IMG/VR virus record: IMGVR_UViG_3300032207_000296
Span: 1-26,161 of that record
Direction: 5' to 3' (one strand)
Source: a virus
DNA length: 26,161 bases
In this document: in pieces, positions 7,901 to 24,968 of the stretch
Position numbering within the stretch: the first letter of the stretch is position 1
Layout of the letters: each line of letters starts with the position of its first letter
Notes under the pieces: generated by a model
What the model was told of the DNA's origin: nothing
What the model saw: the letters and a program-made list of their open reading frames with translations, nothing else
Databases searched by the model: none
Position numbers and translations under genes: made by a program

Positions 7901-10250
7901 CGGCAAATGCTGTAAAACGCGTACCTCTGCCAGCCATACTGCTAACTTTAAAGACACGACCAGCGAGTCCTGCGCTAAGGTAATCTACTACAGCGATAGG
8001 GATACCACGTTTCATTCCACGCTCTTTAGCTATCTCCCATATCTCAGGGTCATTAATGGCTGCCACATTGTCTTCAGGGTCTAAAGGATTAAGTCCTTTT
8101 TTCTGCATAGCTTCAAAAAAAGCATTGGTATATTCTAATGCTAAAGATGTTGCAGCAAATCCAACTCTAAATCCACGAGTAGCTCCTTTTACTGTTCCTG
8201 GGCCTGGTGCAATAGCTGTTCCTATACCAGCGCCAGCCACAGTGCTTCCAGTTATTATTTCAAATCCATACGGCAACATCTGACCAATGCTGTTAGCAGC
8301 AAGTGTAAGTGCTAACTCTGCAGGGTCATCTGCAAAAACTTTCATGGTTTCTTTTAAACCTTTAGCTCTATTCCACCTGGACATAATTCGAGAGTCTTTG
8401 TAGTTTATATTCTTACCCTTGAATGTAGCTATCATTTGTGCAGCTTTCTTTATATCTTCTGGGTCATTGACATCTAAAGTGGAAAAGTCAAATGGTAAAC
8501 CAGTTGATAGTTGCAACAAAACCTCACCTGCATTTCCATTGTTAAGTCCTTTTTGAAACTCTTGAATAACCGATGTAAAGTTATCTGTAAACTCATCAGT
8601 TATTGTTTGGTCATGCTTGGCATCATAAAATGTTAAAGCTTGCTCATACTTTTGAGCAGCATTAGTTTTTGTAGCTTGAGCCTCTCTGTACGCAACCTTG
8701 AGTCCATCAATTAAATCTGCTTCAGCTTCAGTCTGAGGTTTTATTGAGTTTAAATCTTCAAGCTTAACTCCAAAGGTTGTAAGAGATTGCAATTGCAAAT
8801 TATCTAAAAAGAACTCTGCCTGAGCATTTGTTTGTGCGGCTACTTGCGCTACCTTTTGATATTCTTTTTCTAACTCTACGTCCAAAGATTCTCTCAGTCT
8901 AATCTTATCATCATCCATAACAACATCAAAAAGATTTTGCTCTTGCTGTTTCAAGTCAGTAAGAACTTGTTGTATGTCATCACGCATGATACCATCCACA
9001 TAGAGATTGCTGTATTTTTTACGCTCTTCTTCCGTTAGGTCTTTTAGATACTCTGCTCCAAACTCAGCCAACTCCCCTTCAATAAAATCAATTTTATCTC
9101 TTACTTTTAAATAGTTTTGATAAATTTTATTCTCTTCTGCGAAATCTAAACCTTCCTCTGCATAGATAACTTGACCTAAGGCATGCGATGAGTGTCTATC
9201 TTTCCACGAACCTTGAGCAAACTCTTCTGCTTCTTCTTGCGTATCAAACTCAAACACTTCCCCTCTTTCTTCCGCTAACAATTTAGCGTCATCAAACCCT
9301 AACTCTTGCCACGTGTTTGCAGCAGAGCCATAGAAGTTTGGGTCTTTAGGAAACAATGTAGGGATTACTTTGTACTTACCATCTTCTTCAAATGAAGTAA
9401 ACAAAACTGTAGACCGAGAACCATCTGGATTAACGCGAGCAAACTTGCGCATTTGCTGTGCACGCATAGCTTTTTCATTTAGACTTTCCTCAGCTGTTTT
9501 TTCTTTTGGAGATAAAGCGTGCTCGCTTATGAAGTCTTTTAGCTTTTGAGATTCAAGCACTTCGGTCTTTGATGTAAAAGGGTCAAGGTCTATGCTTATA
9601 GTGTTCTTACCATCCGAAGTGGTTACAAGCATAGCGTCTCCTAAACCTGCCTCTTCAAAAGTAAATCCATACTTTTGAAAGTTGTCTATCATGAAAGGAA
9701 CAACATCCTCTTCTTCCTTTGCTATAAGTTTAGCATCTAAATTTGAAACAGCTAAAGCAAACTCAGGGTCTTGTAAAAGTATTTCAGATTGTTTTTTTCT
9801 TTCCAGTTCAGCAGCTTCAGCCTTTTCTTGTTCTTGCTCCTGGAATTGTTGCATTTTAACAGCTCTGTCAGCTTCAAACTCTTCTCTTCGAGCAGTCGCT
9901 TCCGCAGCTTCTATAGGAGATATAAACTTTTGTTGACCTACTTCTGTGGCATCAATAGCAACCTGGGGTGGTTCGGCTTGAAGTATTTGTTCACGCTCTG
10001 ACGAGTCCAACAAACCAGTTTCCAAACCTGAAACCATATCTGGTTCGTCTTTTTTTTTTACTGCGGTAATGCCTATCAAGGTTTGATAGTCCTCAATTGT
10101 TCCGTTGAAGCCACCTTGTTTAAACATTTCAAATGAGTCATTTAGAGCATCAGGGTTTCCAGCTAAGAGCTCTTTAAACTCATCGCGAGAACCTCTGTAT
10201 CCTCCTTGGAGAAACATATTGTAAGCATCAATAAAAGCTTGTTCGTTCAT
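1995..10250 (-). CDS. Giant polyvalent/internal virion protein with zincin motif, 2751 aa
   Basis: This is probably a capsid-internal protein ejected into the host with the DNA, as inferred from its size, its place after the tail genes and its features. Residues 5-59 hold two tandem 24-residue motifs (QGGYRGSRDEF and QGGFNGTIEDY). Residues about 85-135 are Glu/Gln-rich. Residues about 267-350 resemble a module seen in podovirus internal proteins (IPTLFPKD to EEFAQGSWKD). Residues 646-713 are hydrophobic and Gly/Ala-rich. IHEMGHVW (H1452, E1453, H1456) is a zincin HExxH motif, with E1502 in DETMAILIGD a candidate third zinc ligand. A long helical, basic region spans about 1650-2100. Hydrophobic stretches occur near 2497-2516 and 2537-2560, and the tail ends in charged helices. 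Such multi-domain phage giants are called polyvalent proteins. The peptidase may act on the capsid, the cell wall or host proteins; the sequence does not say which. It starts two bases after the preceding gene. Confidence 0.85.
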   Translation of the reverse strand: MNEQAFIDAYNMFLQGGYRGSRDEFKELLAGNPDALNDSFEMFKQGGFNGTIEDYQTLIGITAVKKKDEPDMVSGLETGLLDSSEREQILQAEPPQVAIDATEVGQQKFISPIEAAEATARREEFEADRAVKMQQFQEQEQEKAEAAELERKKQSEILLQDPEFALAVSNLDAKLIAKEEEDVVPFMIDNFQKYGFTFEEAGLGDAMLVTTSDGKNTISIDLDPFTSKTEVLESQKLKDFISEHALSPKEKTAEESLNEKAMRAQQMRKFARVNPDGSRSTVLFTSFEEDGKYKVIPTLFPKDPNFYGSAANTWQELGFDDAKLLAEERGEVFEFDTQEEAEEFAQGSWKDRHSSHALGQVIYAEEGLDFAEENKIYQNYLKVRDKIDFIEGELAEFGAEYLKDLTEEERKKYSNLYVDGIMRDDIQQVLTDLKQQEQNLFDVVMDDDKIRLRESLDVELEKEYQKVAQVAAQTNAQAEFFLDNLQLQSLTTFGVKLEDLNSIKPQTEAEADLIDGLKVAYREAQATKTNAAQKYEQALTFYDAKHDQTITDEFTDNFTSVIQEFQKGLNNGNAGEVLLQLSTGLPFDFSTLDVNDPEDIKKAAQMIATFKGKNINYKDSRIMSRWNRAKGLKETMKVFADDPAELALTLAANSIGQMLPYGFEIITGSTVAGAGIGTAIAPGPGTVKGATRGFRVGFAATSLALEYTNAFFEAMQKKGLNPLDPEDNVAAINDPEIWEIAKERGMKRGIPIAVVDYLSAGLAGRVFKVSSMAGRGTRFTAFAAERSLIDPVTEGLGETLAQVNVGDEINVKDILAESIGGFGNNTSHMAVNLFVDSRKLSNIELADTFTDIPLLLEARGTNTQISKWSNNMERLGQIDQDVNQRIQKNLGLSKDADNLLQLGVGKNTPANKALKARVMQLLAAKEEYTATPNRKAVFGKKVADINFELAFITENKKQLPPGQRTLLEGLVESTPEVRQDVGRYTIDGKRVTRAQFIKYINEKNRPTLLGTMLTVDNDDETTKLLENKLDAVQIRETEEVDVREQTRDGQEVGTGVPQLETAQPQTAQTEDSSVGPIVAVAPFFNTTINTVEEANQLRQDKNYIQYKDNLTGIGNQLGLTVEVEEGIGGYKNEAGQEIIEISNRVVLPDATLQQAEEYAAMVAALAPETQESTIAAQYVQDNTQEQNGNEYVIQVSDTQAAMNALQQAGITDFSINESTNEVSFIDIFDFADPMLQDKIGIFAENLNNNNVNYEIKDYRPVQSNFIDKGTRKEIIGRIAKERAESRQGGQDLYNSLVQAIENDARFQGIDVSEYIDLDLNQLRQISEAASQEVQDLQQILEPGRPIESTQRLTLEIDETKGRRGINQREFFVEAANENLDNANKLNSFINKAFPGVVISTDQQTFDEIVTSPQVQKYSVGEDIVYGMTVNGDIYINPQVHNSQSQLFNTSIHEMGHVWIKFLKTTPKGQQIYNQGKELVKQTPLYQSQLKKFKNNEEKAVDETMAILIGDKGQQIADASLKSKFQQWLAGMWNYIKAQFKMSKDLTVDEIQDMNLDAFVGTALADIFSGREIKLSDQQLTQLKDGDVAFSTGQSMQSIINTGRENGISDASIREVLIGRGFNRTDINEAMTVRIDEDITMPSEFGNVEGGVEQGTQLFNEVRQGLTEFTTEETTMADVRQKAMDLMKENAIFQAQPEQTQLQLLSSFDRTLGTRANRNVQKEISSIRQSLKDRKKGETSLRDAQNRLKTFIRNNLPRSNTFTQAQINRLINRVTNTTEAKLLADGEFVIKMVQEQQAKMKKAMLNDILKVVKSKALTGFTKSGKRRAKGLSKEGQSYFNSAKKVLNAALKNDVEAMEELRNNIVTNEQVITDILQRQRAGETITTREQSLVFDALAFDNFADVMNMDLNQVQQLMNRLQQIRGESIATFKSRRAQRVAQYEAQANEVTEQIKETNPELFDEDGNVLEAQEFSAKRKQYLQKLKKLGVGKGLIELAKTMKYTSAGKFIRQSKDWFKHLGTLTNLLDRITEGKTVFRDKVYRRLNRMDNQYNTGLFETKTKLDELANSIEGVRKGYNEIKRLLNIGVVNMDVRNKRTGRIRKDVFSGDQLLRMYALSKNEIQRDVLLQQIGESGLAKVEEMLDPKAKEFADKVVDYLSNEYYESVNAVYSQMNDVNLGFIDNYFPTMKAPETVNKDDITVDLRNANFEGIFNAETAPALKERSDKALNIELDAVDFTSTLENHFQTMEKYKAYAEGTKMLNAFFNTPSVAMLIEQMGMRQPIKQAVNFAINPNAGMKSNLSNKFLDGMQVRFTGFALSFKAIQILKQATSFINAYEEYSFFNKDSKVPNVVKSALDPIMFMVDGAQVMFDLAKDLVGAKGAIREAMEISPTFRKRVEQGLEGDIYGLESGSKTFKRVSKRTDKVGRAIRAFKSAAASPTIIGDILGVMGYMINYKRNIKNGMSKAEAVEAFNNYNATQQSRRGADKIPLQQSNNALQRGFTMFGSTLFLQMNKVMQTSTNIIRSVQAGKMPRKQDIRGFYLNAAIANVLFVGVSNIAKFVKGDDEDRMDALKKMAEAMAGMNLLYQIPYAGATIEEYDLVGRMIEGEDYKKKITYSDNVVNPIESVVRKIRKGLRNEEGTFKSQILPILELVIGAQVDPFIGLGNTFGQDSTEAEFEDNIYDVLGISPSYRPSKREVKRDRMNKTDMKKFFPDLYEDLYGPQGSMREIEDIKREIAKEKRQIREELKEEMYGD
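10074..10238 (-). repeat. Tandem 24-residue motif at the N-terminus of the giant protein
   Basis: Residues 6-29 and 36-59 of the 2751-residue protein align without gaps. Shared positions include Asp at 3, MF at 7-8, QGG at 10-12, Gly at 15, acidic/aromatic residues at 18-20 and Leu at 23. This is a protein-level repeat; the DNA copies have diverged. Confidence 0.75.
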
Positions 10251-12175: not shown

Positions 12176-13092
12176 TATCTTTTAAATTCATTTATACGAG
12201 GAACTCCATACAAGTTTGTTCCTGCCGATAAAGATTGCTGAATCATATTTCTTTGAGAAGGAGTCATTTGTAGAAGAGCCAATTGAACTTGTTGTGGTGT
12301 CATAGAAGAAAAAGCTGCCAAATCTAAATCACTAAATTGCCCAACTCCTAAACCACCTGATTGACCAATCATTCCAAATTCATCAAACATTTCTGGTGTA
12401 AATGTCATTTTACCAATTTGTTGACCAAAAGATGCTGGGTCATAGGTTTGTCTAAATTCTTTTCTTGTACCTCCTCCAGCTAAGAAATCTTGCCTTTGTT
12501 GCTGGCGGAAATTTCTTTCCATTTGACTAACATCTCTTGCAGCTGCTGATTTTTTAAAGTCAGGTATTGCGCTCACTCCTTGCACAGCTAAATTAGCAAC
12601 TCCCATTGCTCCTTGCTGTAAATATTGACTACGTCTTTGTTCTGCATCAGCCATGGCTTTCTGAGCGCCTTGTATTTCACCTAAAGCTAATTGAGATTTG
12701 ATGTCTGATTTCCGAGTATCTTCATCTGCTGTTAATTTTTCCAACTCGAATAAATCTTTACCCATTGATGTTCGCTGTTCTGCTGCAGCTTGCAAAGCAG
12801 CTTGATTCAATCGGTTTGCGCCTGCCATGACTCCGCGCTGGTCTCCCTCTTGAAGTGCATTTATTTGAGATTGTACGTTTGTTTTTAAAGTATCCTGAGC
12901 TATTTCGTATGGCTCTTTCTGGATAGCCATAGATTCATACTCATTTTTTGTAAGCTCTTTTTCAATGTCTCGCATAGCATCTTCAGCTTTTCTTGCGGCA
13001 TCTTCTTCAAGCCTTCTTTGTTTGCCTGCTTGTATAAAGCTAAAAGTTGTTGCGCCTGCTGATAACACTAAGCCTGCTATTACTCCTGACAT
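12175..13092 (-). CDS. Probable internal virion protein B-like, 305 aa
   Basis: The N-terminus has a short hydrophobic, small-residue segment (GVIAGLVLSAGATTFSF, residues 3-19). A long Ala/Glu/Gln/Lys-rich helix or coiled coil follows (about 20-180), then a Gln-rich patch with QQQRQDF, and a Met/Gln/Ser-rich end with two similar elements (SSMTPQQVQLALLQ and MTPSQRNMIQQS). One hydrophobic N-terminal helix followed by a Gln-rich coiled coil is what one sees in the small T7-type internal virion proteins (gp14 type), which insert into the outer membrane during ejection. I infer that role from layout, not from a sequence match. Its start overlaps the end of the cupin gene by 13 bases and its stop overlaps the next start by one base, so these genes are translationally coupled. 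Confidence 0.7.
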   Translation of the reverse strand: MSGVIAGLVLSAGATTFSFIQAGKQRRLEEDAARKAEDAMRDIEKELTKNEYESMAIQKEPYEIAQDTLKTNVQSQINALQEGDQRGVMAGANRLNQAALQAAAEQRTSMGKDLFELEKLTADEDTRKSDIKSQLALGEIQGAQKAMADAEQRRSQYLQQGAMGVANLAVQGVSAIPDFKKSAAARDVSQMERNFRQQQRQDFLAGGGTRKEFRQTYDPASFGQQIGKMTFTPEMFDEFGMIGQSGGLGVGQFSDLDLAAFSSMTPQQVQLALLQMTPSQRNMIQQSLSAGTNLYGVPRINEFKR

Positions 13093-13604
13093 AATAATGT
13101 TTTATTTACAATTATATGCTCTGGTAAATCTCTATAGTCTTCCGTATAAACATCCACTTCAGCATCTTTAATATTTTTTGCATCTGTCCTGTAAACACAA
13201 ACCCAAGTGCAATCTTCGTGCATATATGCTACTCTTTGTGTGCCGATTTCAGTCATCACCTTCATAGGCGCTTTTATTCTTTTTACCTCACCTGTATCTA
13301 AAAGTACCGACATTTCTCCTTTTAGAAAAAATGAGGGGTGGTTTTGCTTATGAATATAACTAACCACTAAAGCACCTTTAGGCATCAATATCTCTCTGGT
13401 ATATAAACCATCTTGTAGATGATGCTTGACAGGCATAAGCTCTTCCATTTCAGAGGTGTGATGCTTTACACCTTCTTTGTGTTGTAATATAGTGTCTTTG
13501 AAGACACTAATATTTTCCCACAACACCCCTCTATTTTGGTGAACATATTGCAGTACATCTTCAGGTTTTTCTTTTTTCCTTTTGAATATACTTAATATAC
13601 CCAT
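13080..13604 (-). CDS. Cupin-fold phage protein, 174 aa
   Basis: Residues about 58-140 fit a single cupin beta-barrel. Strand pairs flank IHKQNH (H85, H89), followed by FLKGEMSVLLDTGE. The second half contains EIGTQRVAYMHEDCTW (H129). H85, H89 and H129 could bind a metal as in motifs 1 and 2 of cupins. The first 15 residues are Lys-rich, which may be a nucleic-acid or capsid contact. Related cupin-like proteins occur in tail modules of marine phages, where their job is unknown. It is the first gene after a promoter-like element that ends six bases before its ATG, so its message may be nearly leaderless. It overlaps the next gene by 13 bases. Confidence 0.75.
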   Translation of the reverse strand: MGILSIFKRKKEKPEDVLQYVHQNRGVLWENISVFKDTILQHKEGVKHHTSEMEELMPVKHHLQDGLYTREILMPKGALVVSYIHKQNHPSFFLKGEMSVLLDTGEVKRIKAPMKVMTEIGTQRVAYMHEDCTWVCVYRTDAKNIKDAEVDVYTEDYRDLPEHIIVNKTLLCQE

Positions 13605-13605
13605 A

Positions 13606-13625
13606 CTTTTCTACAAAGATAAGAA
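13606..13625 (-). promoter_or_regulatory. Predicted Bacteroidota-type promoter, copy 2
   Basis: In the 23-base gap before the cupin gene, the - strand reads CTTATCTTTGTAG (13611-13623). TATCTTTG matches the Bacteroidota -7 consensus TAnnTTTG. Over 20 bases it is identical at 18 positions to the element at 22581-22600. A clear -33 TTG box is not seen; TTTC lies about 21 bases upstream of the TA. Confidence 0.6.
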
Positions 13626-13627
13626 TT

Positions 13628-14431
13628 TTAAGGATAACTTTTGAAAGCCTCTGATTTGACTGCAAACAGCTCTGTGGCTGCAGTATTGTCATTAGTAAGC
13701 TTAAATAAACAGTAGTGACCAAGCACACCTTGAGATTCGGCAACTGGATTTTTAATATATAGAAAATAAAAATCTTGCGCTGGTATAGGGATAGCACCTT
13801 GAGCTTGGTTGTCAACCACTACAGTCGAAACATTTGTAGCTTTGTTATATGTAACAGAAGTAATTTGTCCACAAAACTGAGGTGTTAATGTGGTTACTGG
13901 AGGTGTGTTGTCTGCAAAAAATAATTGGTCTCCAACAGATATAATAGAACCTAAATCTAAATTAAAAGTTATTGTAGCCGTAGTTGCATCGTTTTGCGCG
14001 CTTGCACTGTTTCCAATACCAGTTAAAGAACGTAAAGCAAATTGATTAGCGCCAGCTGGATTTGTGCTGTTATTTCTTACAAACGCAAACCAGTCAGATT
14101 CTTTTTGAGCAAAATAATTTTTATCTATAAATCCGTTTGTTTGCAAATCAGTTTCAAGTTCAGCTGCCCAACTATCATCGCTTTCAAGAGCAAGAGTCTT
14201 AAATTTTTTATTATCAAGAGGAGACTCGTTAAACACACTGGTTATTGTAGAGTTGTATTGAACTCCATAAAAGTTATTTCTATCTACTTTATCAGAGTTG
14301 TGTTTATACAAGTTGCCACCTTTAAATGTATACAAAAATTGATTCATACCGTGAATGTAATCAGGATAATAACTATAACAAGAAGGCCATCCTTTTGAGT
14401 TTTCGCTGTATGTTAAGGTTATATTTGACAT
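13628..14431 (-). CDS. Virion tail protein, nozzle-associated type, 267 aa
   Basis: The N-terminal half has a pattern I associate with tail nozzle/stabilisation proteins of Bacteroidota phages: SYYPDYIHGMNQFLYTFKGG, then LYKHN, RNNFYGVQY and SVFNESPLDNKKFKTLALES (residues about 20-85). The C-terminal half (from about 130) is a beta-rich, Thr/Val/Asn-rich domain containing a run like ITFNLDLGSIISVGDQLFF. It has few charged helices, no signal peptide and no catalytic motif. It lies 10 bases after the duplicated tail protein, and its stop is followed directly by the promoter-like element. In related phages this first domain seems to belong to a larger nozzle-type protein, so here it may be a detached module. 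I recall that link rather than having checked it. Confidence 0.7.
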   Translation of the reverse strand: MSNITLTYSENSKGWPSCYSYYPDYIHGMNQFLYTFKGGNLYKHNSDKVDRNNFYGVQYNSTITSVFNESPLDNKKFKTLALESDDSWAAELETDLQTNGFIDKNYFAQKESDWFAFVRNNSTNPAGANQFALRSLTGIGNSASAQNDATTATITFNLDLGSIISVGDQLFFADNTPPVTTLTPQFCGQITSVTYNKATNVSTVVVDNQAQGAIPIPAQDFYFLYIKNPVAESQGVLGHYCLFKLTNDNTAATELFAVKSEAFKSYP

Positions 14432-14441
14432 ATTATATTTT

Positions 14442-16169
14442 TTACGTACAGTTTCCAGTTGCTATTACAATACCATTTGAGCTCACTTCAATGAAATCAT
14501 TGTTATCCATAATATAAAATCCTTGAGGCAGCGGTGTTACACCATCCTGGTCTTCAAATACAAAATTATGAAGTTCAGGGTAGGTGTTTTGAACGCCATT
14601 AAACTGAGCAAAGAAAAATTGCTGAGTGAAATCTGTTGAGCACGTACTATCACCTTGCCCTACTGTAGAGTTAAATGATGGTAAGTGTGCAGGACAATTT
14701 ACCTGTATATTCCATCCAGTTGGGCATGGCCCTAAAACTTCAATAGTAACAATATTTGGCGTAGCATTTGGCTTTGGTATTACCATCATATTATCTACGC
14801 TCATAGTCAATGCGTTTGTTTGATTGTCTGCACCGCTAAGAGTGTAGTTTCCACTGTTTGGAGTATTAGGCCCCCATGTATTTTGTGGCGTTAAAATACT
14901 TCTGGTGTAACTAAATGTTCCTATTCGCGGTTGCCAGCAATTGTCATTGGGGTCTCCTAAAAGTGTAAACGCAGCAGGGTCACTGGATTGGCTTTCTCGG
15001 TAGCCTAACCCTGGAGTAGATAGTGTGTTGTAATAAACGCCATCATATTCAACTCTTATTCCATCAGGCACTCCTATTGGGTCAAAATATATAATAACTG
15101 CACCAGTGTCATTTACTGTAGAACCAGCATCTAATTCAATCGTATAGTGACCTTGTTGACCTTGTGGCGGATTTAGATTTCCAGCACATGGTAAAGGTGG
15201 GTTAGTACAAGCTCCTGTGCTAACGACTATGCCATGTACTATTTCAATATATGTGCTGTTATTTAAAATAACAAACTGAGGTGTTGCTGAAGGGTTGATT
15301 GCGCCTGCTCCAGTATCATCAAAGAAAACATAGTTTCCGACTTCAGGTAAAGTGTTTGTGTCAGGATTAAAAGAAGTGACAAGTCCAGTATTAGGGTCAA
15401 ATGTAGCAGTTGCATTTGGCGCATAAAAATAATTGTTTACTACACTATCGCAATCAGTATCGTTTCTTACAGCCGAACCTTGAAACGGAGCTAATGGGCC
15501 TGGACAAAAAGCTTCATATTGAAAAAATGTACCTTGTATTGGGCCAAAGTAATCTATGTTCATTGTAGATACAGCAGTGCCCTTTGGAATTACCTGAGTG
15601 TAAACAGTTGCTCCTCCTCCACCTCTCAAGTCTACGTTATTTGAATTAACATTAACAGCTTGATTTGGCAGGTTACTTTGTATGTAACTACCATCAGTTT
15701 GTATAGTATATACAGGTAAATCAGGTGTAGTTACAGGAGTGTTTATGTTACTCCCATAATAGGTTGGCTCACCAGGCGTGCTATTTAAACCTATAGGGTC
15801 TCCATTGTTACCTTGGAAAGTTAGCTGATTAAATGTCTGTCCATCAAATGTTACCAACACTCCATCAGGAATTGAATTACCAACTACAGAGTAAATAATA
15901 ACAGCTCCAAGGTCAGCTCCGACACCGACTTGAGCTAAGAAAGTACCATTAACACCAGTATCCGAAAAACCTGCGATATCCCCACAAGGCACAGCGCACG
16001 ATGGGCAATTTTGCTGAGGCAAAAGCACGCAATTAACTTGTTCACGAACAATAGAGCCATTGGAATAAAATCCATCTGGTGCACATTGATTCATATCAGC
16101 ATCTGCATAAACAGCTGTTGAGCTGCTTAAATCAGGGCCATTTAAATAATATGTAGTTTCTGTTGCCAT
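14442..16169 (-). CDS. Duplicated, cysteine-rich tail protein, 575 aa
   Basis: This is probably a surface-exposed tail or receptor-binding protein, judged from position and composition (very rich in Asn, Thr, Gly and Pro, few Lys, beta-rich). It consists of two halves that align (residues about 60-322 and 327-575). Each opens with a sandwich-like stretch (LGAVIIY to IPDGVLVTFDG, and TGAVIIY to VPDGIRVEYDG) and ends with VGNYVFFDD to VVSTGACT or LHNFVFEDQ to VIATGNCT. About 16 cysteines recur at matching places, including NCPSCAVPC near residue 60; disulfides or metal binding are possible. I chose the ATG at 16169, two bases after the nozzle stop. The frame could also open at a TTG at 16190, but that would overlap the nozzle gene and is less likely. 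Confidence 0.75.
   Translation of the reverse strand: MATETTYYLNGPDLSSSTAVYADADMNQCAPDGFYSNGSIVREQVNCVLLPQQNCPSCAVPCGDIAGFSDTGVNGTFLAQVGVGADLGAVIIYSVVGNSIPDGVLVTFDGQTFNQLTFQGNNGDPIGLNSTPGEPTYYGSNINTPVTTPDLPVYTIQTDGSYIQSNLPNQAVNVNSNNVDLRGGGGATVYTQVIPKGTAVSTMNIDYFGPIQGTFFQYEAFCPGPLAPFQGSAVRNDTDCDSVVNNYFYAPNATATFDPNTGLVTSFNPDTNTLPEVGNYVFFDDTGAGAINPSATPQFVILNNSTYIEIVHGIVVSTGACTNPPLPCAGNLNPPQGQQGHYTIELDAGSTVNDTGAVIIYFDPIGVPDGIRVEYDGVYYNTLSTPGLGYRESQSSDPAAFTLLGDPNDNCWQPRIGTFSYTRSILTPQNTWGPNTPNSGNYTLSGADNQTNALTMSVDNMMVIPKPNATPNIVTIEVLGPCPTGWNIQVNCPAHLPSFNSTVGQGDSTCSTDFTQQFFFAQFNGVQNTYPELHNFVFEDQDGVTPLPQGFYIMDNNDFIEVSSNGIVIATGNCT
14445..15191 (-). repeat. C-terminal copy of the internal duplication (protein level)
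   Basis: Residues about 327-575 of the tail protein. It starts with GHYTIELDAG and TGAVIIYFDPIGVPDGIRV and ends with FIEVSSNGIVIATGNCT, matching the N-terminal copy in the same order. Confidence 0.7.
15204..15992 (-). repeat. N-terminal copy of the internal duplication (protein level)
   Basis: Residues about 60-322 of the tail protein. It starts with GTFLAQVGVG and LGAVIIYSVVGNSIPDGVLV and ends with YIEIVHGIVVSTGACT. It contains an extra, poorly matching middle part (about residues 125-210). Confidence 0.7.
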
Positions 16170-16171
16170 AT

Positions 16172-19100
16172 TTATGGTGTTCCTGTACAATTACAACATA
16201 CGTCATCTAAATCAACTGTTGAGTAGCACAAGTCTTCTGCAACTGATTTTCTGTAATCGTATATCAAATATAAGTAATCCCCAGTAGTTGGCATAATAAA
16301 CGATGATTTGTAAGCTATTGGAGCTTGTGACGTATCTGTCGTTAACAAATCAGAAGCGTTTAATAAACTTAGTATACTTGCTGGAGTTGTGTTATATACA
16401 GTGTTTGTTCTTAAAACTCTAAACTCATTTTGGCTTGGGTCAAAAACAAAGTCATCTGTATTATCTTTTCTGGATATAATCGAAACACTTGCGCCATCGG
16501 CAGGGATTACTCCTGCTCCTTGAGGGCCAGTAACACTTTCAAATTGTGATACCACTATGGATGCAGTGTCGTCAATAAATTGAACTTGCTCCGAATGTAA
16601 TGGTGAAACAAATGTTCCATCAACCCATCTATATTCATTGTGGATAAGCTGTTCAGCTTCAGTTGCATTTGTTAAACACACTTGAACAATTGTAATAACA
16701 TCAGCAACAGGACAATTAACTACAACTGAAACAATTGAGTCAGTAGTAGGCACAATAGTAATATTTACCTCCTCTTTGTCTACAACATTCTTATCAATGT
16801 TTATAGTTCCTGTAGAATTACTGCTGTTTGTAGTTCCGTTGTATTCAGCTGTTACTGTAGCGCTACCATCAATAATAACATCGACAGCTACATTGCCAAC
16901 CAACTGGCCTACATCTACACAGTATTCTACTGTATTGTTGGCCTCTAAATTAAATGTTCGTTTAAGGTCACAATCAAAACACAATGGAAGGTCTGGTAAT
17001 TCTTCCATGTTTGAGCTAATAACATACTCGTTCATATATGGGTCATACCCACCCAACTTCTGCGTGTCTGGAGAAGCTATAAATAAATCTCTAAAATAAG
17101 AACGCAATCCAAACTCTGAAATAACAGTTAGTTGTTCGCTCTGACCAGAGCCAGAAAGTTTTAAAACAACTCCTCTTTTAGAGTCAGTAAAGTATTTATC
17201 GAATCCCCATTGTACGTAGCTTTCTGGGTTTTTACTAATACCATATTCTTCAATACGAGCAATCTGAGTTCCTAAAACTTCAGGAACAGATGCCACTTGC
17301 CCACCGCCAGTTGAATCAGATAGGAGGTTTTTACCTGTTAAGACGTAAGATATTTTATCTTCTTGCAATACTAATATATCTGTTTCTCGTCCATCTAATT
17401 TTTGTATTGAGCCAAAAGTGTCTTCTAATGGCTTGAAGTTAAGTAGACCTAAATTAAACTCGTTGAGTTTATTTACATTAGACTCGTCATTGTAAACACC
17501 ACTATAAGTTAAATCAGCAAACCTATGAGCTTCTTTAAAATCAACTTCTGAAGTTGACGCTGTTCTTTCTCCAAGTGCAAATTCTTTTCCTATTATAGAA
17601 TCTCTAATTTTGTAGCTCTCTACACCATTGCCAAAAGCATAGCAATTAAAAAATGCAGTGTCTATAATAGCTGACTGAACGTCTGTTTGCGATTGTACAT
17701 TCCCTGAATGATGTCCAGTTGTAGTGTCTATGTCATAAGACTGAGAAGACTCATACCATAAATCTGGCGTTGCGTCTTGAGGTAAAGTTTCAAACACTAT
17801 AGTAGATTCTGCTCTAATAACAGTAATCTCCATTTCTACACTCGCTCTTCTTTTACGTGAACCACTACCTATGTGGCGACAAGTATTTGTTCCAGTTACC
17901 ATAAACAATGTTTCATTGGTTTGGGTATCTCTAAAGAACTTAAAATAATACGTACATGATGCTGTAGGTATATCGTTTTTATTTGTCGCTATTTGCTGAA
18001 TGTATTGAGTTCTGAAGTATGGAGGTGGACAATCAGCCTCACCTTTTGTTTCAGCTGTTCCTGTATTTAATCGTGGCGCAATATTTTCTCCATTAAAAAA
18101 ATCTACAAAATTATCATAGTTTTGTGCAGAAACGTGGTCTATTTCAAGCGTGTACCTTCTTCTTTCACACTTAGTACGTATACCAGGTCTATTAAAATAC
18201 CATGACATGTTAACCCTTGAGCCAGCTGGTATAGTGTAATCTATGAAAGCTCCTGCATTGTTTGGGTCTTCAATGTTTACAGGATACCTAACTATAGGAT
18301 GTGCATCATCGTCTTTTGCTGTGTCTTTTTTTACGCCTGGAGCTATAGTTGGAAGGTCACCTTGAATAACATTAAAGTCATTTGCTTTAATTCTCATGTA
18401 AGTTCCTGCAGGAACAAACAAATCGTTACCATCTGCATCAGTCGGAGCTGGGTCTAAAAAGTCTTTAGTCTGAGCTGATTTTTCCAAAACAGTAGCATAA
18501 TTACACCTTTCTGTTGGGCCCTCAGTATCTCTTTTAACTATTAGCCTATCGCCCTCTTCTACTTTTCTGGCGTTTTCTCCTTGTAATAAAAACAGAGTTT
18601 CGTTAGTTGTTGGGTCGTTAAAAAATACATTAGTAAAAATAGTTTCGTAATCTTCCATATCTGGTTTTATTACGAATTTATATTTTGATGCCCAAACTGG
18701 AGCTAATTGAGTAGGCGGTATGCTTATTTGTACTTTGTTAACCAGGCTTGATAGTGAACAGGGAACATGAATGGTATTCAAAGGACTGACAAGCGCAGTG
18801 GTTGACCTATTAAATTCGTCCATATACACAATCCCAATCTCATAATCTCTATTGCTATGCAAACTTTTGGGGTTTCCTAACTCGGTATAAGTACCATCTG
18901 CAGTTACAATGTCATAGTATTCGTACACTCTTTGAGTAGGAGTTGTTGTATCATCAACAAACTCCATAGCTAACAAACTAAATCCTATTTCGTTGCTACC
19001 AGGGGATGTATATACTTGTATAGCTTGACCTGTAGAAGTAACGCCACTGGCAAATTTTGTTAAACTATCCAGGTTATTTGGCACAGCACAATTAAACTGG

Positions 19101-20596
19101 TCAGTAAAAGTAAAACCATCACACGAAGTTGGGTTACCTGGAACTGGGTCAAACACTGGTTTTATATTTGATGAAGTTCCCACAAGCTCCGCAAAAGCTG
19201 GGTCAGTAGCTAATTCATAAACACTATTGAAATCTTGAGGCAATATAAAGGTAAGCGCTATATCTATTTGGTCTGTTTGCTCAGCTGGGAATGGAGTTTG
19301 TCCGCCAAAAGTAGAGTGCCCAAATCTTACTTCTAAATTTAGAGTTGCTCCTTGTTTGAGTTCTAACCCATCTAAATCAAAATTAACTCTTCCATTCAAT
19401 ATATTTATTGGAGCGTCTACTGTATAAATTTGCTCTGCTGCTTCGTCTTCCAACTCATTTAAACCTATCTCTTCCGAGATTAAAGTTGCACTATATTCAA
19501 ATTTAACAGGGTTGGTGTTTTTATCAAGTAAATCAAAACCATCAACATAGTTTCCATAAACAAGACGATTACCCATAATGGTTTGTGCTTTTGCTCTTAT
19601 CGGCACATTATCGTAAAGGCGCACAAGTTCTGTATTTGGTAAAACAGTAAATATTTTACTATTAGTAAAATTAATTTCGTAATCAGTATTGTTTGCTAAA
19701 CCTAATTCAAATTTGTTGAATTTTTCTATAGACTTGATGACACCACTTGTAGATTCTTTGAAAACAACTTCAACGTCTTTTACTAATTCACTGCCTGTGT
19801 TATATTCAATTTTTACAGAATTAAAAACATTTTTCATGCCTTCATTTAATCCTGAGTCAGTTTCAAGACTAAAATTACTTGGCTGAAAAGCTATGTCCGA
19901 AAATTGAGATAGAGCCGAATATTCTCCATCAGCATATTGATATCTGTACGCAAAAGATAAATATCTTTCTTCCAAAAAATTTTCTTCTCCACTTACGTTT
20001 TGAAGTGTAATCTTTGGAGATGAGCTTGGTGGTTTTTTAATTACCAGCAGTTCTTCAGCAGTAAAACTGTCGACTAAAGGAACTCCGTTGGGTAATGTTT
20101 TCCCTGTTACAAGGTTTATGAATCTGGGTGGATTTATATTATCTGTAAAAAATAATAAATCTTCAACTCGATTAACACCTGTAATTAAAAACTGAGGATT
20201 AAAATCTAATGTAGTTTTAGTTTGACTTCCATCATTTACACTAACAGCATGATATGTAGTTACATTCTCAACAACATTGAATGAAACTATTAAGTCTAAT
20301 ATATTTGATGGTGAACCTGGAAAAGCTGGGTCATGAACAAACCATATTATGGTTTCTCTTTGTCCATCTTCAAACGAACCAATACATTTAGCTTGATTAC
20401 TAAGTGGTACATTGTTAAACTCTAATGCAGTTATCTTTTCGTTTCCCTTAGAGTTTTCTACTGAGCCAATCTCCGACTGTTCGGTAGAACCTAATCTGAC
20501 GTTGAGTCCGTCTATATATTCTCCGTTAGGCACAAGGCGTTCATCAACGCTCTTGTTCATTCGTCCAGCTATAAAATTTCTTTGCGTAGTTGGCAT
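16172..20596 (-). CDS. Tail nozzle / stabilisation protein, 1474 aa
   Basis: This is a large beta-rich protein of the type that forms the tail nozzle (T7 gp12-like, called stabilisation protein in crAss-like phages). N-terminal hallmarks are FIAGRMNKSVDERLVPNGEY with DGLNVRLGS (residues about 8-45), then propeller-like repeats, LLFFTDNINPPRFINL (about 150-165) and YRYQYADGEYSALSQFSD (about 218-235). A TNETLF element occurs twice, near residues 657-679 and 882-908. The last 250 residues hold a beta-sandwich (VEYCVDVGQLVGNVAVDV, near 1224) resembling the repeated domain of the next gene, and a cysteine-rich end VCCNC. It is well above T7 gp12 in size (about 800 residues), so it carries extra domains that could be adhesive. 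It starts one base after the ring-protein stop. Confidence 0.8.
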   Translation of the reverse strand: MPTTQRNFIAGRMNKSVDERLVPNGEYIDGLNVRLGSTEQSEIGSVENSKGNEKITALEFNNVPLSNQAKCIGSFEDGQRETIIWFVHDPAFPGSPSNILDLIVSFNVVENVTTYHAVSVNDGSQTKTTLDFNPQFLITGVNRVEDLLFFTDNINPPRFINLVTGKTLPNGVPLVDSFTAEELLVIKKPPSSSPKITLQNVSGEENFLEERYLSFAYRYQYADGEYSALSQFSDIAFQPSNFSLETDSGLNEGMKNVFNSVKIEYNTGSELVKDVEVVFKESTSGVIKSIEKFNKFELGLANNTDYEINFTNSKIFTVLPNTELVRLYDNVPIRAKAQTIMGNRLVYGNYVDGFDLLDKNTNPVKFEYSATLISEEIGLNELEDEAAEQIYTVDAPINILNGRVNFDLDGLELKQGATLNLEVRFGHSTFGGQTPFPAEQTDQIDIALTFILPQDFNSVYELATDPAFAELVGTSSNIKPVFDPVPGNPTSCDGFTFTDQFNCAVPNNLDSLTKFASGVTSTGQAIQVYTSPGSNEIGFSLLAMEFVDDTTTPTQRVYEYYDIVTADGTYTELGNPKSLHSNRDYEIGIVYMDEFNRSTTALVSPLNTIHVPCSLSSLVNKVQISIPPTQLAPVWASKYKFVIKPDMEDYETIFTNVFFNDPTTNETLFLLQGENARKVEEGDRLIVKRDTEGPTERCNYATVLEKSAQTKDFLDPAPTDADGNDLFVPAGTYMRIKANDFNVIQGDLPTIAPGVKKDTAKDDDAHPIVRYPVNIEDPNNAGAFIDYTIPAGSRVNMSWYFNRPGIRTKCERRRYTLEIDHVSAQNYDNFVDFFNGENIAPRLNTGTAETKGEADCPPPYFRTQYIQQIATNKNDIPTASCTYYFKFFRDTQTNETLFMVTGTNTCRHIGSGSRKRRASVEMEITVIRAESTIVFETLPQDATPDLWYESSQSYDIDTTTGHHSGNVQSQTDVQSAIIDTAFFNCYAFGNGVESYKIRDSIIGKEFALGERTASTSEVDFKEAHRFADLTYSGVYNDESNVNKLNEFNLGLLNFKPLEDTFGSIQKLDGRETDILVLQEDKISYVLTGKNLLSDSTGGGQVASVPEVLGTQIARIEEYGISKNPESYVQWGFDKYFTDSKRGVVLKLSGSGQSEQLTVISEFGLRSYFRDLFIASPDTQKLGGYDPYMNEYVISSNMEELPDLPLCFDCDLKRTFNLEANNTVEYCVDVGQLVGNVAVDVIIDGSATVTAEYNGTTNSSNSTGTINIDKNVVDKEEVNITIVPTTDSIVSVVVNCPVADVITIVQVCLTNATEAEQLIHNEYRWVDGTFVSPLHSEQVQFIDDTASIVVSQFESVTGPQGAGVIPADGASVSIISRKDNTDDFVFDPSQNEFRVLRTNTVYNTTPASILSLLNASDLLTTDTSQAPIAYKSSFIMPTTGDYLYLIYDYRKSVAEDLCYSTVDLDDVCCNCTGTP

Positions 20597-20597
20597 A

Positions 20598-21521
20598 TTA
20601 CTTTATCCATTTATCCTGACCTCTTAAATTCATTAATAGTCGGCCAGGGTGTATATTACTAATTCTAATTTTAGCATTTCTGAGCAAAGCTGAACTACGC
20701 TTACGAGCTCTATTAACAATAAACTCTTGCGTTCCTTGCTTACTATTTAGAATTGCAAACTGGACGTATGCGTACACATATTCTTCAAATAATTTATTTA
20801 CACTTACTTTAGAATCATCTCCAGATTCCATTCCATCAGACACATATTCCAGTATACAAAATTCTTTTGCCATGCCAGAACTAAAATTAATTACTCCAGC
20901 TTTTTGGTCTATACGGAAAGTAGGATTAGAATTAGCTGTTTCTGTATTCAAACCATATCGAGCGCCTATGGCGTAATCGAAATACCAGTAACCATCACAG
21001 CAGTAACCTTCCATATTATGATAAGGACTATTTTCATTTAAGTATATACTCTTTTTAGTTCCTTCAATTCTTTGCAGGTCTATCAATGATGAAGATGGCT
21101 TGAGAACATTCCCCTGGTCATCAAATAAAATTTTACAATCGTGGTCTTGCAAGTAAGCATCACTGTAATTAGTTTGTATATTTTCAGTAAGAGGTCTAAG
21201 AACACCATCTTTATATATAGATATTCTAACCCAGTTGACATAATCAGGTGGAAGTACAAATCTTAAATTATCACACACCTGAAGTTCTAATACTTTTATT
21301 TCCTTGAAGGCATCGTAATTAAGTTCCTGAATAGCTCTTTTTGCGTGAAACAAAACTTTGAAACGCTCTTCATTATTTACAAGAGAATGATTGCCTGCAT
21401 ACATCAACATAAAATTGTTGACAATATCTTCCAAGCTTACATACTGGTATGACCCCCAGTTTTCATTTTCTGGTGTTCCGCCTCCATTTTCGTAATATTG
21501 CCATGCACTAATATATGCCAT
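20598..21521 (-). CDS. Tail ring/adaptor protein (tail tubular A-like), 307 aa
   Basis: The stretch LFHAKRAIQELNYDAFKEIKVLELQV (about residues 57-82) followed by LPPDYVNWVRISIYKDG is characteristic of ring or tubular proteins that sit between portal and nozzle in crAss-like and T7-like Bacteroidota phages. Helices come first, then a beta domain (about 85-220), then a C-terminal helical part with basic RARKRSS near 270 and an end close to LRGQDKWIK. Cys-Cys at about 174 (GYCCDGYWYFDY) is unusual for a cytoplasmically assembled ring protein. It overlaps the preceding gene by one base (TAATG) and is followed one base later by the nozzle gene. The exact ring identity cannot be decided here. Confidence 0.75.
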   Translation of the reverse strand: MAYISAWQYYENGGGTPENENWGSYQYVSLEDIVNNFMLMYAGNHSLVNNEERFKVLFHAKRAIQELNYDAFKEIKVLELQVCDNLRFVLPPDYVNWVRISIYKDGVLRPLTENIQTNYSDAYLQDHDCKILFDDQGNVLKPSSSLIDLQRIEGTKKSIYLNENSPYHNMEGYCCDGYWYFDYAIGARYGLNTETANSNPTFRIDQKAGVINFSSGMAKEFCILEYVSDGMESGDDSKVSVNKLFEEYVYAYVQFAILNSKQGTQEFIVNRARKRSSALLRNAKIRISNIHPGRLLMNLRGQDKWIK

Positions 21522-22570
21522 TATTTCTCATTTTGATTTTCTACCAATTCTTGCGATTGTCCAAATTGAACTGCTTCAGCTTCTCTTATGGACATACCAG
21601 CAAATTGTAATATTTTCATGACCAATGTTGGCTCTTCATCTTGTGGTAATTCAAAATCCTGATAGTCTGAAGCGCTTTGGTTAAACGTAGGTTCGCTACC
21701 CACTAAATTAAAATACGTCCACTTTGGGTCTTTGGGATATCTTATATACTGACAAAATACTCTACCAAAATTATTCGAGCTAAAATCAGGATTGACCCCA
21801 ACGCCTAAATAGTATTGAGTCCACGAAGGGTTTTGAGGGTATATCTGCAATACGTCTTCATTTTGAGTATACACAGGAAACATCTCGGTAGGCTTAGTTA
21901 AATTAGATTGACTAAGCATAGTTGCCTTTGCTTGTGTAACTTTATCGACATCTTTTACACCATCTCGCATATTGTAAATAGTGTATGACATACCTAACCC
22001 TGCTAAGTTTTCACTTATATATATAATATTTCGGCTTGCTGGGTCAAGGACATCAACAAAGCCTCCACTTCCTCCTATTTGAACATAATCCCCTGGTCTT
22101 ACTCCAGATGCAAAAAAATCAACATTGGTATCTTCCAATATTGTACCAGCACTGCCATTTGTGGCTATACTGCTGACCAAAACTTTTGTGTTGTATAAAA
22201 CCTTATTGATTAAATAATAATCAAATCCAGTTGTATTAGTTGTCGGCACTCGCCAATTATTAATCTGCGGTAACCCGGCTCCTCCTCCACCTTGAGTTTG
22301 GTCTGTTGTCGTAACATTAGTAAGTGGGTCAAAACGAGAAAACATATTAATTACTTCCTCGTAACCTTTTGTTATGTCAGCCAAACCAGTGCCTGACTGG
22401 CGTACATTTTCCTTATTGATTTGATAATTGTATTGATAAAAGTAGTCTTCAAATATATCTAATTGAGCTTGCTTAGCATACAAGTTAAAATCGTTTGGAG
22501 TAATGTATCCGTAGTTGTTTTTATTCAACAAAGACAGCACAGTTTCTCGCACTGAATTAATCATGCTCAT
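21521..22570 (-). CDS. Head-tail ring/adaptor protein, 349 aa
   Basis: The helical N-terminus (VRETVLSLLNKNNYGYITPNDFNLYAKQAQLD is the key part, residues 7-38) has the look of the first ring or adaptor proteins of crAss-like and related Bacteroidota phages, which bind the portal. A Gly-rich linker with GGGGAGL (about 93-99) and a beta domain follow. The C-terminus from about 310 is helical (DEEPTLVMKILQFAGMSIREAEAVQF). Two in-frame ATGs (22570 and 22564) are possible starts; I took the longer. It is preceded by the promoter-like element, which ends 15 bases before the ATG, and by the terminator of the previous transcription unit, so it begins a new unit. It overlaps the next gene by one base. 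Confidence 0.7.
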   Translation of the reverse strand: MSMINSVRETVLSLLNKNNYGYITPNDFNLYAKQAQLDIFEDYFYQYNYQINKENVRQSGTGLADITKGYEEVINMFSRFDPLTNVTTTDQTQGGGGAGLPQINNWRVPTTNTTGFDYYLINKVLYNTKVLVSSIATNGSAGTILEDTNVDFFASGVRPGDYVQIGGSGGFVDVLDPASRNIIYISENLAGLGMSYTIYNMRDGVKDVDKVTQAKATMLSQSNLTKPTEMFPVYTQNEDVLQIYPQNPSWTQYYLGVGVNPDFSSNNFGRVFCQYIRYPKDPKWTYFNLVGSEPTFNQSASDYQDFELPQDEEPTLVMKILQFAGMSIREAEAVQFGQSQELVENQNEK

Positions 22571-22580
22571 CGGTTAATTT

Positions 22581-22600
22581 CTTTACTACAAAGATAAGTA
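22581..22600 (-). promoter_or_regulatory. Predicted Bacteroidota-type promoter, copy 1
   Basis: The - strand reads CTTATCTTTGTAG at 22586-22598, with TATCTTTG matching TAnnTTTG. It sits just downstream of an intrinsic terminator and 10 bases before the ATG of the 349-residue ring protein; the 13-base core ends 15 bases before it. The same 20-mer (18/20) lies at 13606-13625. The upstream -33 position is the T-tract and stem of the terminator, so no good -33 box is visible. Confidence 0.6.
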
Positions 22601-22631
22601 AAAAAAAAGAGGATGCGTTTCCGCACCCTCT
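22600..22631 (-). terminator. Intrinsic terminator after the 251-residue gene
   Basis: On the - strand, arm GAGGGTGCG (22622-22630) pairs with CGCATCCTC (22609-22617) around a GAAA tetraloop: nine pairs with one G-U, plus one A-T pair outside. A run of about nine T follows (22600-22608). This is a textbook Rho-independent terminator with a GNRA loop. Confidence 0.9.
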
Positions 22632-22685: not shown

Positions 22686-23441
22686 TTATTTTTCAGCTTT
22701 TAGCTTTTTTTCTAAAAACTTTAATATATCTATCCCTTCATCAGATTGTAAATAAGATGCTATAACATACAATGGGTCTTCGCCAAATGGCAAAGTCAAC
22801 ATTCTTTTTTTGTTTGAAGACGTGTTGAAGTACACATCTTTTTTAGAATTTTTGTAAATCAAAATCTTCTTGTTGAATAGTTGAGTGATAGTTGCCTGTA
22901 GCTTCATCATTGGGTCGTTAATCGCTTCTAAGAAATCATCAGGATGGCTTTCTGCAAATACTAATAAATCTCTGCGTAATTCTGATGAAGTTATTTTAGC
23001 AGGGTCTATCCCAAACAATACACTTGACAAATTTTCAACCTGGTCAATATCAAGATTTCTGGCTTCTATAAGAGCATCAACTCTGGAGTTTAGTTTATTA
23101 ACTTCAGTTTGTGCGTCTTGTTCCTGATTTACTTCTATAAATTTTTTACCATTGTATGGATGGTAATGTAAAAATTCCTGCAGAACTGGATTGGTTCGTG
23201 GAACACGTAAAAATCCATCTTCAAATATAACTGGCTCAACTATAGCGTTGCCGTCTTGTTCGTCTTCAAATGGTGAGTTTTGATTTCGTGCATATCGTAA
23301 AGCTCGGTTTACACCTTTAGTATTATCAAAATAAAGTAAAGGTCGTTTACTTGAGCTTCTGGTTTGCAGCATAAAAGAAAGTGGTGCTGCGTTGCGTGTG
23401 AGTTTGTAGACCTTGTCTACAAGGTTTTTTCGTTGTTTCAT
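22686..23441 (-). CDS. Virion-associated protein of unknown function, 251 aa
   Basis: I do not recognise a named family. The N-terminus is basic (MKQRKNLVDKVYKL). The middle has PVLQEFLHYHPYNGKKFIEVN (about 103-123), followed by a helical stretch with a probable coiled coil (about 125-155). A helical domain with SELRRDLLVFAESHPDDFLEAINDP (about 155-180) comes next. The end TLPFGEDPLYVIASYLQSD (about 215-235) is followed by a Lys-rich helix. There is no enzyme motif, signal peptide or membrane segment. It sits between the major capsid gene and the ring proteins, where other phages encode head completion or decoration proteins; that is inference. It is flanked by terminators on both sides, so it may be made at a lower level than capsid. 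Confidence 0.75.
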   Translation of the reverse strand: MKQRKNLVDKVYKLTRNAAPLSFMLQTRSSSKRPLLYFDNTKGVNRALRYARNQNSPFEDEQDGNAIVEPVIFEDGFLRVPRTNPVLQEFLHYHPYNGKKFIEVNQEQDAQTEVNKLNSRVDALIEARNLDIDQVENLSSVLFGIDPAKITSSELRRDLLVFAESHPDDFLEAINDPMMKLQATITQLFNKKILIYKNSKKDVYFNTSSNKKRMLTLPFGEDPLYVIASYLQSDEGIDILKFLEKKLKAEK

Positions 23442-23464: not shown

Positions 23465-23503
23465 AAAAAAAAGGAAGGGAGACGATAGGCGACTCCCCTC
23501 CTT
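23465..23503 (-). terminator. Intrinsic terminator after the major capsid gene
   Basis: On the - strand, arm AAGGAGGGGAGTCG (23490-23503) pairs with CGTCTCCCTTCCTT (23471-23484) around a five-base loop CCTAT (23485-23489). That is 14 positions with one G-U pair and one U-U mismatch. It is followed by a T-run (complement of 23465-23472). It begins 10 bases after the capsid stop codon. No TAnnTTTG element is seen between it and the next ATG. Confidence 0.88.
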
Positions 23504-23513
23504 ATAACTAATA

Positions 23514-24968
23514 TTACTCCTTGAACATGAAGAAGTTGTTCGCGCCCATAACGCAAACACATCTTTCTGATAGGAAGTTAACTTCCATCGCATCAAGGTC
23601 GCTTGTAGCAGCGCCACCAGCAGAACCTGTAATCCAAGTTTTGTAACGTCTGTCTTCAGTTTCTGAAGCTCGGTATCTAACATGCAAGAATGGTCTCTTA
23701 GCGTTTTTACCAAGGATTTGGTCATAAACAGTAGTCGAACCAGCAGGAACTAATAGTCCATTTACAACATCAGAACCAGTACCAGCTGTAAGTCCACCAC
23801 GCATTGTGGGGTCGTTTAGATATTTCCAGTCAGACTTATAGAAATCATAACCTCTGCGGAATCCTGTGAATCCAAGATTAAGGGCCATTTCTTCGTCATT
23901 GTCAAACAATCCGTAAGAAGTACCACCTGGATTACCATAAGAATTTTGAGCAGCTAACATATTGTCGATGTCAAAGCTTGAGTCTCTGTTTAGGAAAATT
24001 ACATTTTCCTCAATAGCTCCTTGCTTATCAAGTCGAGAAATGATAGAGTCAAAATCTGAAAGAGCGCTTGGGAAAGCTCCTGACCACAAGTTTCCTCGTG
24101 TTTCTACCGCGTGGAATACACCTTCAGAACCTTTATCACCTACTATATCAGAGGAAGTCTGCGCTTTTACACCAGAACCTGCTTCAGCTGGAACAGCTTC
24201 AATCATAGCAGTTTCAAGATAGTCGTCAAAACGAAGTCTTGTTTCGTGCTCTGATTTTAGATACCATAGATATCCAGTTGCTCCATTTTCAGTAGTAACT
24301 TCAATCCATCCGATTTGAGCCATATCTGAACCAGATACCGCATATTTGTCTTTTAGGATAATAGGAGAATTGTCAAAGATTTCATCTTCAGCTTCCAAAG
24401 AACCTACCATTCCAGTAGTACCTTTCTTAAATTCTGAACCATAGATGAAAATAGTTGCGTCATCATTACCTAATCCTGTACCTCCTGTATAACCTTGCGC
24501 GTCATAGAAAGCAATTGTTACTTGTTTGTTTGCTAAATCAACAGCAATAACAAGACCTTTAAATTCGCCACTTCCGTCATTGTTAGCAACAACAACAGTT
24601 TGACCAACTCGAATTGCAATCTGTCCTGCAGTAAGGCCAGTAGCAGCTCTATCAGGAACTAATGTGTCGTTGATTTGGAAAACAACTTCTCCGCCTGCAA
24701 CAACAGTACCTGCACCACACTTAACATATTTTGTGTGAAGTCGTCCTTGCTCTGCCCACTTAACGAGGTCAGAGTTTGAAGGTAGCTCTGCTCCTACCAA
24801 ACGTAAGAAAGAGGAAATTGTTCTGTTACCATAACGCTCGAACTCTTTTTCGTACGTGTCTGGTAGATACTGATTTAGAAAATTAAAATCAGTAATGTAG
24901 TTTGTAGCCAACGGCACTTGTTGTGGCGCTGGTTGTAACTGAAACCCTGGGGTTGCTTGTACACTCAT
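23514..24968 (-). CDS. Major capsid protein (HK97-fold, crAss-like type)
   Basis: At 484 residues it has the right size for the capsid proteins of crAss-like and related Bacteroidota podoviruses. The N-terminus has YITDFNFLNQYLPDTYEKEF followed by RYGNRTISSFLRLVGAEL (about 24-62). An inserted beta-rich domain (about 85-190) may be the I-domain-like insertion. After it come IGWIEVTTENG, the helix LKSEHETRLRFDDYLETAM (about 234-252), and the stretch GYDFYKSDWKYLNDPTMRGG (about 377-396). The last is typical of the C-terminal axial domain in this lineage. The protein ends VMGANNFFMFKE. It lies immediately after the scaffold-like gene (23-base A/T gap, no Shine-Dalgarno) and is followed by a strong terminator, as expected for the most abundant structural protein. 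I assign the fold from pattern memory and context; a structure prediction would settle it. Confidence 0.85.
   Translation of the reverse strand: MSVQATPGFQLQPAPQQVPLATNYITDFNFLNQYLPDTYEKEFERYGNRTISSFLRLVGAELPSNSDLVKWAEQGRLHTKYVKCGAGTVVAGGEVVFQINDTLVPDRAATGLTAGQIAIRVGQTVVVANNDGSGEFKGLVIAVDLANKQVTIAFYDAQGYTGGTGLGNDDATIFIYGSEFKKGTTGMVGSLEAEDEIFDNSPIILKDKYAVSGSDMAQIGWIEVTTENGATGYLWYLKSEHETRLRFDDYLETAMIEAVPAEAGSGVKAQTSSDIVGDKGSEGVFHAVETRGNLWSGAFPSALSDFDSIISRLDKQGAIEENVIFLNRDSSFDIDNMLAAQNSYGNPGGTSYGLFDNDEEMALNLGFTGFRRGYDFYKSDWKYLNDPTMRGGLTAGTGSDVVNGLLVPAGSTTVYDQILGKNAKRPFLHVRYRASETEDRRYKTWITGSAGGAATSDLDAMEVNFLSERCVCVMGANNFFMFKE

Follow-up and report, generated by a model that had tools for sequence, protein, structure and literature searches.

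Two conserved intergenic boxes of an Elemovirus-like podovirus as predicted host-type promoters, one behind a terminator and one near-leaderless

The DNA analysed here, referred to as the window, comprises 26,161 bases (positions 1-26,161 of the IMG/VR virus record IMGVR_UViG_3300032207_000296) and is a fragment of an Elemovirus-like podovirus. Its nearest annotated relatives are MW202828 (Manatee Spring) and the Flavobacterium 'elemo' phages; Cellulophaga phi13:2 and Maribacter phage Panino are more distant. The hosts of the cultured relatives (Flavobacterium, Cellulophaga and Maribacter) all belong to the Flavobacteriia. The structural genes are located on the minus strand and include further PHROG head and packaging families besides the genes given below. 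The following features, all on the minus strand, are relevant to this study:

13080-13604, minus strand: gene of a cupin-fold protein (174 aa) behind the putative promoter P3, matching short tail fibre/adhesin families (PHROG 24280, E 1.2e-23)
13605-13609, minus strand: predicted P3 leader of 4-5 nt, near-leaderless, from the box-to-ATG distance and a predicted start site
13614-13621, minus strand: P3, -7-type promoter box TATCTTTG of the cupin-fold adhesin gene and following genes, assigned by conservation and its position after the muzC stop codon
13628-14431, minus strand: muzC, muzzle C-terminal-domain protein, the gene before P3 (PF25729 crAss_MUZ_C, E 5.7e-17)
16172-20596, minus strand: muzzle gene (PF25731 and PHROG 14478)
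21521-22570, minus strand: gene opening the P2 unit, from a virion structural protein family (PHROG 14543, E 2.4e-32)
22571-22584, minus strand: predicted P2 5' leader of about 14 nt beginning with AAAG, predicted start at 22584 or 22583, from the box-to-start distance in F. johnsoniae
22589-22596, minus strand: P2, -7-type promoter box TATCTTTG for the ring/muzzle block (gene 21521-22570), assigned by conservation in homologs
22600-22608, minus strand: T9 tract, U-tract of terminator T2, probably also the A/T-rich element of P2 (-16 to -24 in F. johnsoniae numbering)
22609-22631, minus strand: T2, hairpin of the terminator assigned to the gene 22686-23441 transcript (10-pair stem with 6 G-C pairs, -17.6 kcal/mol)
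23465-23501, minus strand: T1, intrinsic terminator between genes 23514-24968 and 22686-23441 (-19.0 kcal/mol, T8)

In our model the blocks are arranged in the order P1, 24992 gene, 23514 gene, T1, 22686 gene, T2/P2, ring and muzzle genes, P3, adhesin and giant genes, with P1, the promoter of gene 24992, located past the window end. The earlier label 'cupin gene' for the 13604 gene is supported by an AlphaFold model of moderate confidence (pLDDT 72.9), whose best Foldseek matches were cupins (E about 1e-6). The product thus combines a predicted cupin (double-stranded beta-helix) core with families annotated as short tail fibre or adhesin. A PDB sequence search with this protein gave no match, and none was obtained when the plasmid collection was searched with the muzzle C-domain protein. 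Genes 16172-20596 and 13628-14431 of these small podoviruses match Crassvirales muzzle families, which provides a structural link between the two groups. The first plus-strand gene (window 3-500) resembles the C-terminal helix-turn-helix of DnaA with 31.3 bits, just under the cut-off of 31.5, and MW202828 and phi13:2 likewise carry DnaA-annotated genes. The last 19 bases (26143-26161, CTGTCTCTTATACACATCT) represent a Tn5/Nextera mosaic-end adapter, a sequencing leftover at the contig end, so that the gene running off at 26161 is cut by an artefact.

The original prediction proposed near-identical elements in front of two gene starts, 13604 and 22570, and this was borne out. CTTATCTTTGTAG is present in two exact copies on the minus strand (13611-13623 and 22586-22598), and the 20-mers CTTATCTTTGTAGAAAAGTA and CTTATCTTTGTAGTAAAGAA are identical at 18 of 20 positions. 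The intergenic segments were simulated 300 times with a first-order Markov model, and no 20-mer match between simulated segments went beyond 16 positions. The intergenic DNA totals 251 bases, so that the earlier figure of roughly 300 was about right. As anticipated, the 13-base match is unremarkable over the whole window, where four 13-mers with two or fewer mismatches were found compared with 1.63 expected, and 8 of 100 shuffles reached four. The 13-base repeat indeed ends 6 bases before the ATG at 13604. Both copies share the core TATCTTTG (22589-22596 and 13614-13621). A feature missed by the original prediction is a strong intrinsic terminator (22600-22631), whose T9 tract the copy at 22589 directly follows.

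A search for the element before gene starts in relatives had been proposed as a check and was carried out; the element is retained at both places wherever the sequence of the relative reaches far enough. In front of the 22570 gene, TATCTTTG was found in all 69 distinct homolog upstream sequences that were long enough to cover the site. Upstream of the 13604 gene, TATCTTTG or TACCTTTG, i.e. TA(T/C)CTTTG, was present in 35 of 35 distinct homolog upstream sequences, counting relative L125, in which a GTG start codon follows 4 nt after the box. Homologs were further collapsed at 75% N-terminal identity and TAHHTTTG was sought within 60 nt of the start; gene starts in the uncultured relatives were called by a simple script. 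The motif preceded 19 of 24 clusters at P1 (24992), 6 of 6 at P2 (22570) and 18 of 19 at P3 (13604; 19 of 19 with L125). Taken together, 43 of 49 divergent clusters at the P1-P3 genes carried it, compared with 7 of 147 at the eight remaining structural starts (Fisher p about 3e-29, a value that overstates independence, as the relatives share ancestry and the counts are not independent events).

On the minus strand, the P2 region reads hairpin (22631-22609), T9 tract (22608-22600), ACT, TATCTTTG (22596-22589), leader and ATG (22570). T2 has the make-up of an intrinsic terminator, a G+C-rich hairpin directly followed by a T-tract. The register between terminator and box is largely fixed: of 65 distinct relatives, 58 have a gap of 3 nt between T-run and box and 5 have one of 2 nt, and the T-run has a length of 9 in 41 of the 65. 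The sequence of the T2 stem varies among relatives, yet nearly all of them still fold (mean -15 kcal/mol). An alignment of 20 sequences of the 22570 region, with a mean column identity of 49%, displayed invariant columns only in the T-tract and the eight box bases. The stretch in which a -33 element would fall is occupied by the hairpin and harbors no -33 TTG. Of the 61 intergenic terminators in all genomes, 28 had TAHHTTTG within the next 20 nt and only one had the reversed motif, most of the 28 being P2 itself. T1 is not followed by a -7 box in the window; such a box is present at this position in elemoA and MW202828.

The position of the T-tract coincides with the A/T-rich stretch of host promoters, and a single tract therefore probably serves both as U-tract of the terminator and as A/T-rich stretch of P2. 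Kang et al. showed in vitro that E. coli polymerase can remain bound to the DNA once an intrinsic terminator has ended the transcript, and can then initiate again from a promoter close by (PMC6978380). P2 likewise lies just past an intrinsic terminator, a geometry in which a retained polymerase could initiate again. We consider it conceivable, although rather doubtful, that P2 is a fused terminator-promoter module in which the polymerase released at T9 would be handed straight to P2 (termination-coupled reinitiation), and that the fixed register was selected for this hand-over.

The P3 box is located 6 nt beyond the muzC stop codon in the window and 6-9 nt past it in 21 of 22 genomes, including elemoA with a muzC identity of 27%; phi13:2 lacks it. 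The muzC stop codon and the bases following it provide the A/T-rich stretch of P3. In contrast to the box, the gene behind it is exchangeable. Among 21 genomes, the cupin-fold adhesin was found in 16, a different family of 135-137 aa in 4 and another gene in 1. The adhesin gene is replaced in this way at the P3 junction of elemoA, MW202828, G013, G016 and G014, which marks a cassette position. No Pfam match above the cut-off was obtained for the 135-137-aa family. In 17 of 18 adhesin clusters the box precedes the start codon by 4-9 nt (by 18 nt in the remaining one), and in the 135-137-aa family by 4-7 nt. Assuming transcription starts 4-5 nt after the box, the mRNA leaders at P3 would comprise 0-5 nt; an earlier translational start is excluded in the window by an in-frame TAG just upstream of the ATG. 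The conserved geometry is compatible with the near-leaderless message that had been suggested for the 13604 gene. In F. psychrophilum, leaderless transcripts account for 5.5% of mRNAs (PMC9723704). The predicted P3 leader resembles these Bacteroidota transcripts (PMC9723704) but differs in that its shortness is kept over many phages and unrelated downstream genes. In the annotation of elemoA gp24 (NC_055852.1, record 48134), the start codon precedes the P3 box and the reading frame runs through it; going by the conserved geometry, translation is predicted to begin six codons later, at an ATG whose A would be the first transcribed base. In the elemoA record the P3 box lies at the gp25/gp24 junction and the P2 box TATCTTTG at 42113-42120.

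Promoters of the Bacteroidota primary sigma factor (sigma-ABfr or sigma-A) consist of a -33 TTTG, an element described for B. fragilis, and a -7 TAnnTTTG element. TATCTTTG matches the -7 element of this promoter type. In F. johnsoniae the -7 element is TAHHTTTG, with G excluded from the free positions; promoters of this species are rich in A/T at -18, initiate 4-5 nt past the box and have a -33 signal that is weak or absent genome-wide (PMC6847099), so that the -33 element was not taken as a defining feature. Intergenic TAnnTTTG sites within 60 nt before a start were collected from the window, 18 related virus records and three annotated phages. The free positions of the resulting 174 sites were TC in 79, TA in 37, AC in 24 and CC in 11 cases, with other combinations making up the rest. 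G occurred at these positions in only 6 of the 174 promoter-like sites compared with 477 of 1242 coding matches away from starts. Like host DNA, structural-strand sites and the P2 T-tract showed A/T enrichment between -17 and -22. Position 5 after TTTG was A in 78% of the structural-strand sites, which are A-rich where the start is expected. Parabacteroides DNA from the plasmid collection (200 kb) gave a similar profile, based on only 34 sites. It is mainly the avoidance of G at the free positions and the agreement with F. johnsoniae promoter features that lead us to assign the box to the host sigma-A type.

In their exact -7 sequence TATCTTTG, the absence of G, the A/T-rich stretch around -18 and their position upstream of gene starts, P2 and P3 resemble Bacteroidota sigma-A promoters. 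They deviate from these in three respects: P1-P3 have no -33 TTG, the P3 leader is predicted to be very short or absent, and the A/T-rich stretch of P2 is a terminator T-tract. A scan for E. coli-type sigma-70 promoters gave 63 matches compared with 52.5 expected and is uninformative for Bacteroidota. On the host side, a contig scan with a phage GroEL gave a single locus; the genome concerned carries a 584-aa open frame with a sigma domain, too long for the Bacteroidota primary sigma factor, and was dropped in favour of the Parabacteroides DNA. The Parabacteroides 'plasmids' NZ_OY725790.1 and NZ_OY725823.1 (L194-L197), 237-278 kb in size, carry housekeeping genes (valine and asparagine tRNA ligases, bamA and pfkA) and look like mislabelled chromosome pieces.

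Several other explanations of the repeat were considered. A 13-mer match with two mismatches is not rare in 26 kb, but both copies are restricted to intergenic DNA, and chance as their origin, to which we attach practically no probability, is refuted by their conservation in relatives down to about 27% muzC protein identity. A translational or mRNA-level element at the two starts, such as a ribosome entry site or leader structure, would suit the 4-9 nt between the P3 element and the start codon as well as the lack of Shine-Dalgarno sequences in Bacteroidota (PMC6847099). This reading is very unlikely, however, given that the distance to the start codon is 15-19 nt at P2 and that the box also precedes unrelated downstream genes; moreover, its frequent location right behind terminators (28 of 61, with one reversed motif) makes little sense for a translation signal. 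Equally improbable is an operator to which a repressor or activator would bind. It would account for a short conserved DNA word at several starts, and some early copies are palindromic (TATCTTTGTACAAAGATA), but most copies are not, the free positions obey the sigma-A rule, and the palindromes can be explained as two -7 boxes of divergent genes placed face to face. The translational or operator role considered in the original prediction is thus disfavoured, the box being retained at the P3 junction even when the downstream gene is unrelated. Near-palindromic pairs of facing -7 boxes such as TATCTTTGTACAAAGATA occur between divergent genes at G016:1481-1498, G001:2738-2756, G007:53202-53220, G003:45009-45025 and other sites, and are candidates for bidirectional promoters with overlapping, mutually exclusive starts.

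A further alternative is a dedicated late-promoter class, recognised either by host polymerase that a phage factor has modified or by a sigma factor or polymerase of the phage, as in T4. T4-type late promoters carry only a -10 element, TATAAATA, and no -35 element. Like these, P2 and P3 drive virion genes and have only the downstream box conserved; unlike these, their box equals the host consensus. The difference in upstream elements is in favour of such a class. A TTG at a spacer of exactly 20 nt was found at 8 of 28 replication-strand sites compared with 3 of 69 other structural-strand sites (p = 0.002), and at a spacer of 19-21 nt it occurred in none of the 43 P1-P3 clusters (Fisher p = 0.0003 against the 8 of 28). 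Furthermore, the free positions are mostly TC at P2 and P3 and mostly TA on the replication strand, where TATATTTG is preferred. On the other hand, P1 uses TA or AC, so that no single box is common to P1-P3, and host promoters generally show little -33 signal (PMC6847099). Among 21 related genomes, PF04542 (sigma-70 region 2) matched in none and PF04545 (region 4) gave no match above the cut-off, a search that could miss strongly diverged factors. A regular expression for DxDxD, a crude and weak check for a phage polymerase, found nothing in the giant proteins of the window; the 2751-aa protein encoded at 1995-10250, which has no assigned function, might be a phage polymerase or co-activator. 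In crAss001, a distant crAss-like phage, transcription of the middle and late genes has been attributed tentatively to the host RNA polymerase (PMC8375218). The TAHHTTTG box is shared by replication-strand genes and no phage sigma factor was found in these 21 genomes, both of which argue for ordinary host sigma-A recognition and make a dedicated class improbable. Of the 'phage late promoter for a Bacteroidota host' proposed originally, the conserved Bacteroidota -7-type promoter is retained, in line with relatives that infect Bacteroidota, whereas a special late class is not; 'late' would follow only from the downstream genes being virion genes. Among the papers searched, none combined a Bacteroidetes phage with a late promoter. 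The data read as one host sigma-A system used at two strengths. The structural promoters lack the -33 element and may be weaker or follow another timing, and a phage co-activator might act at them.

Hence, both copies are very probably -7 elements of promoters read by host RNA polymerase with its primary sigma factor of the Bacteroidota sigma-A type. P2 would restart transcription directly after the terminator that ends the preceding message, and the ring/muzzle block would for this reason form a unit of its own. P3 would start a further message 4-5 nt before the adhesin ATG, giving a near-leaderless mRNA and additional transcripts for the adhesin gene and the genes behind it. These assignments provide a candidate map of the promoters that serve the structural genes in a group of Bacteroidota podoviruses that is widespread and for the most part uncultured; one scan gave at least 598 pattern-matched relatives. 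Being simple host-type elements of deep conservation, the promoters may find use as tools and may help to indicate the hosts of uncultured phages. Moreover, the weld of T2 and P2 in fixed register offers a natural substrate for asking whether recycling of polymerase after termination, so far an in vitro phenomenon, operates in nature.
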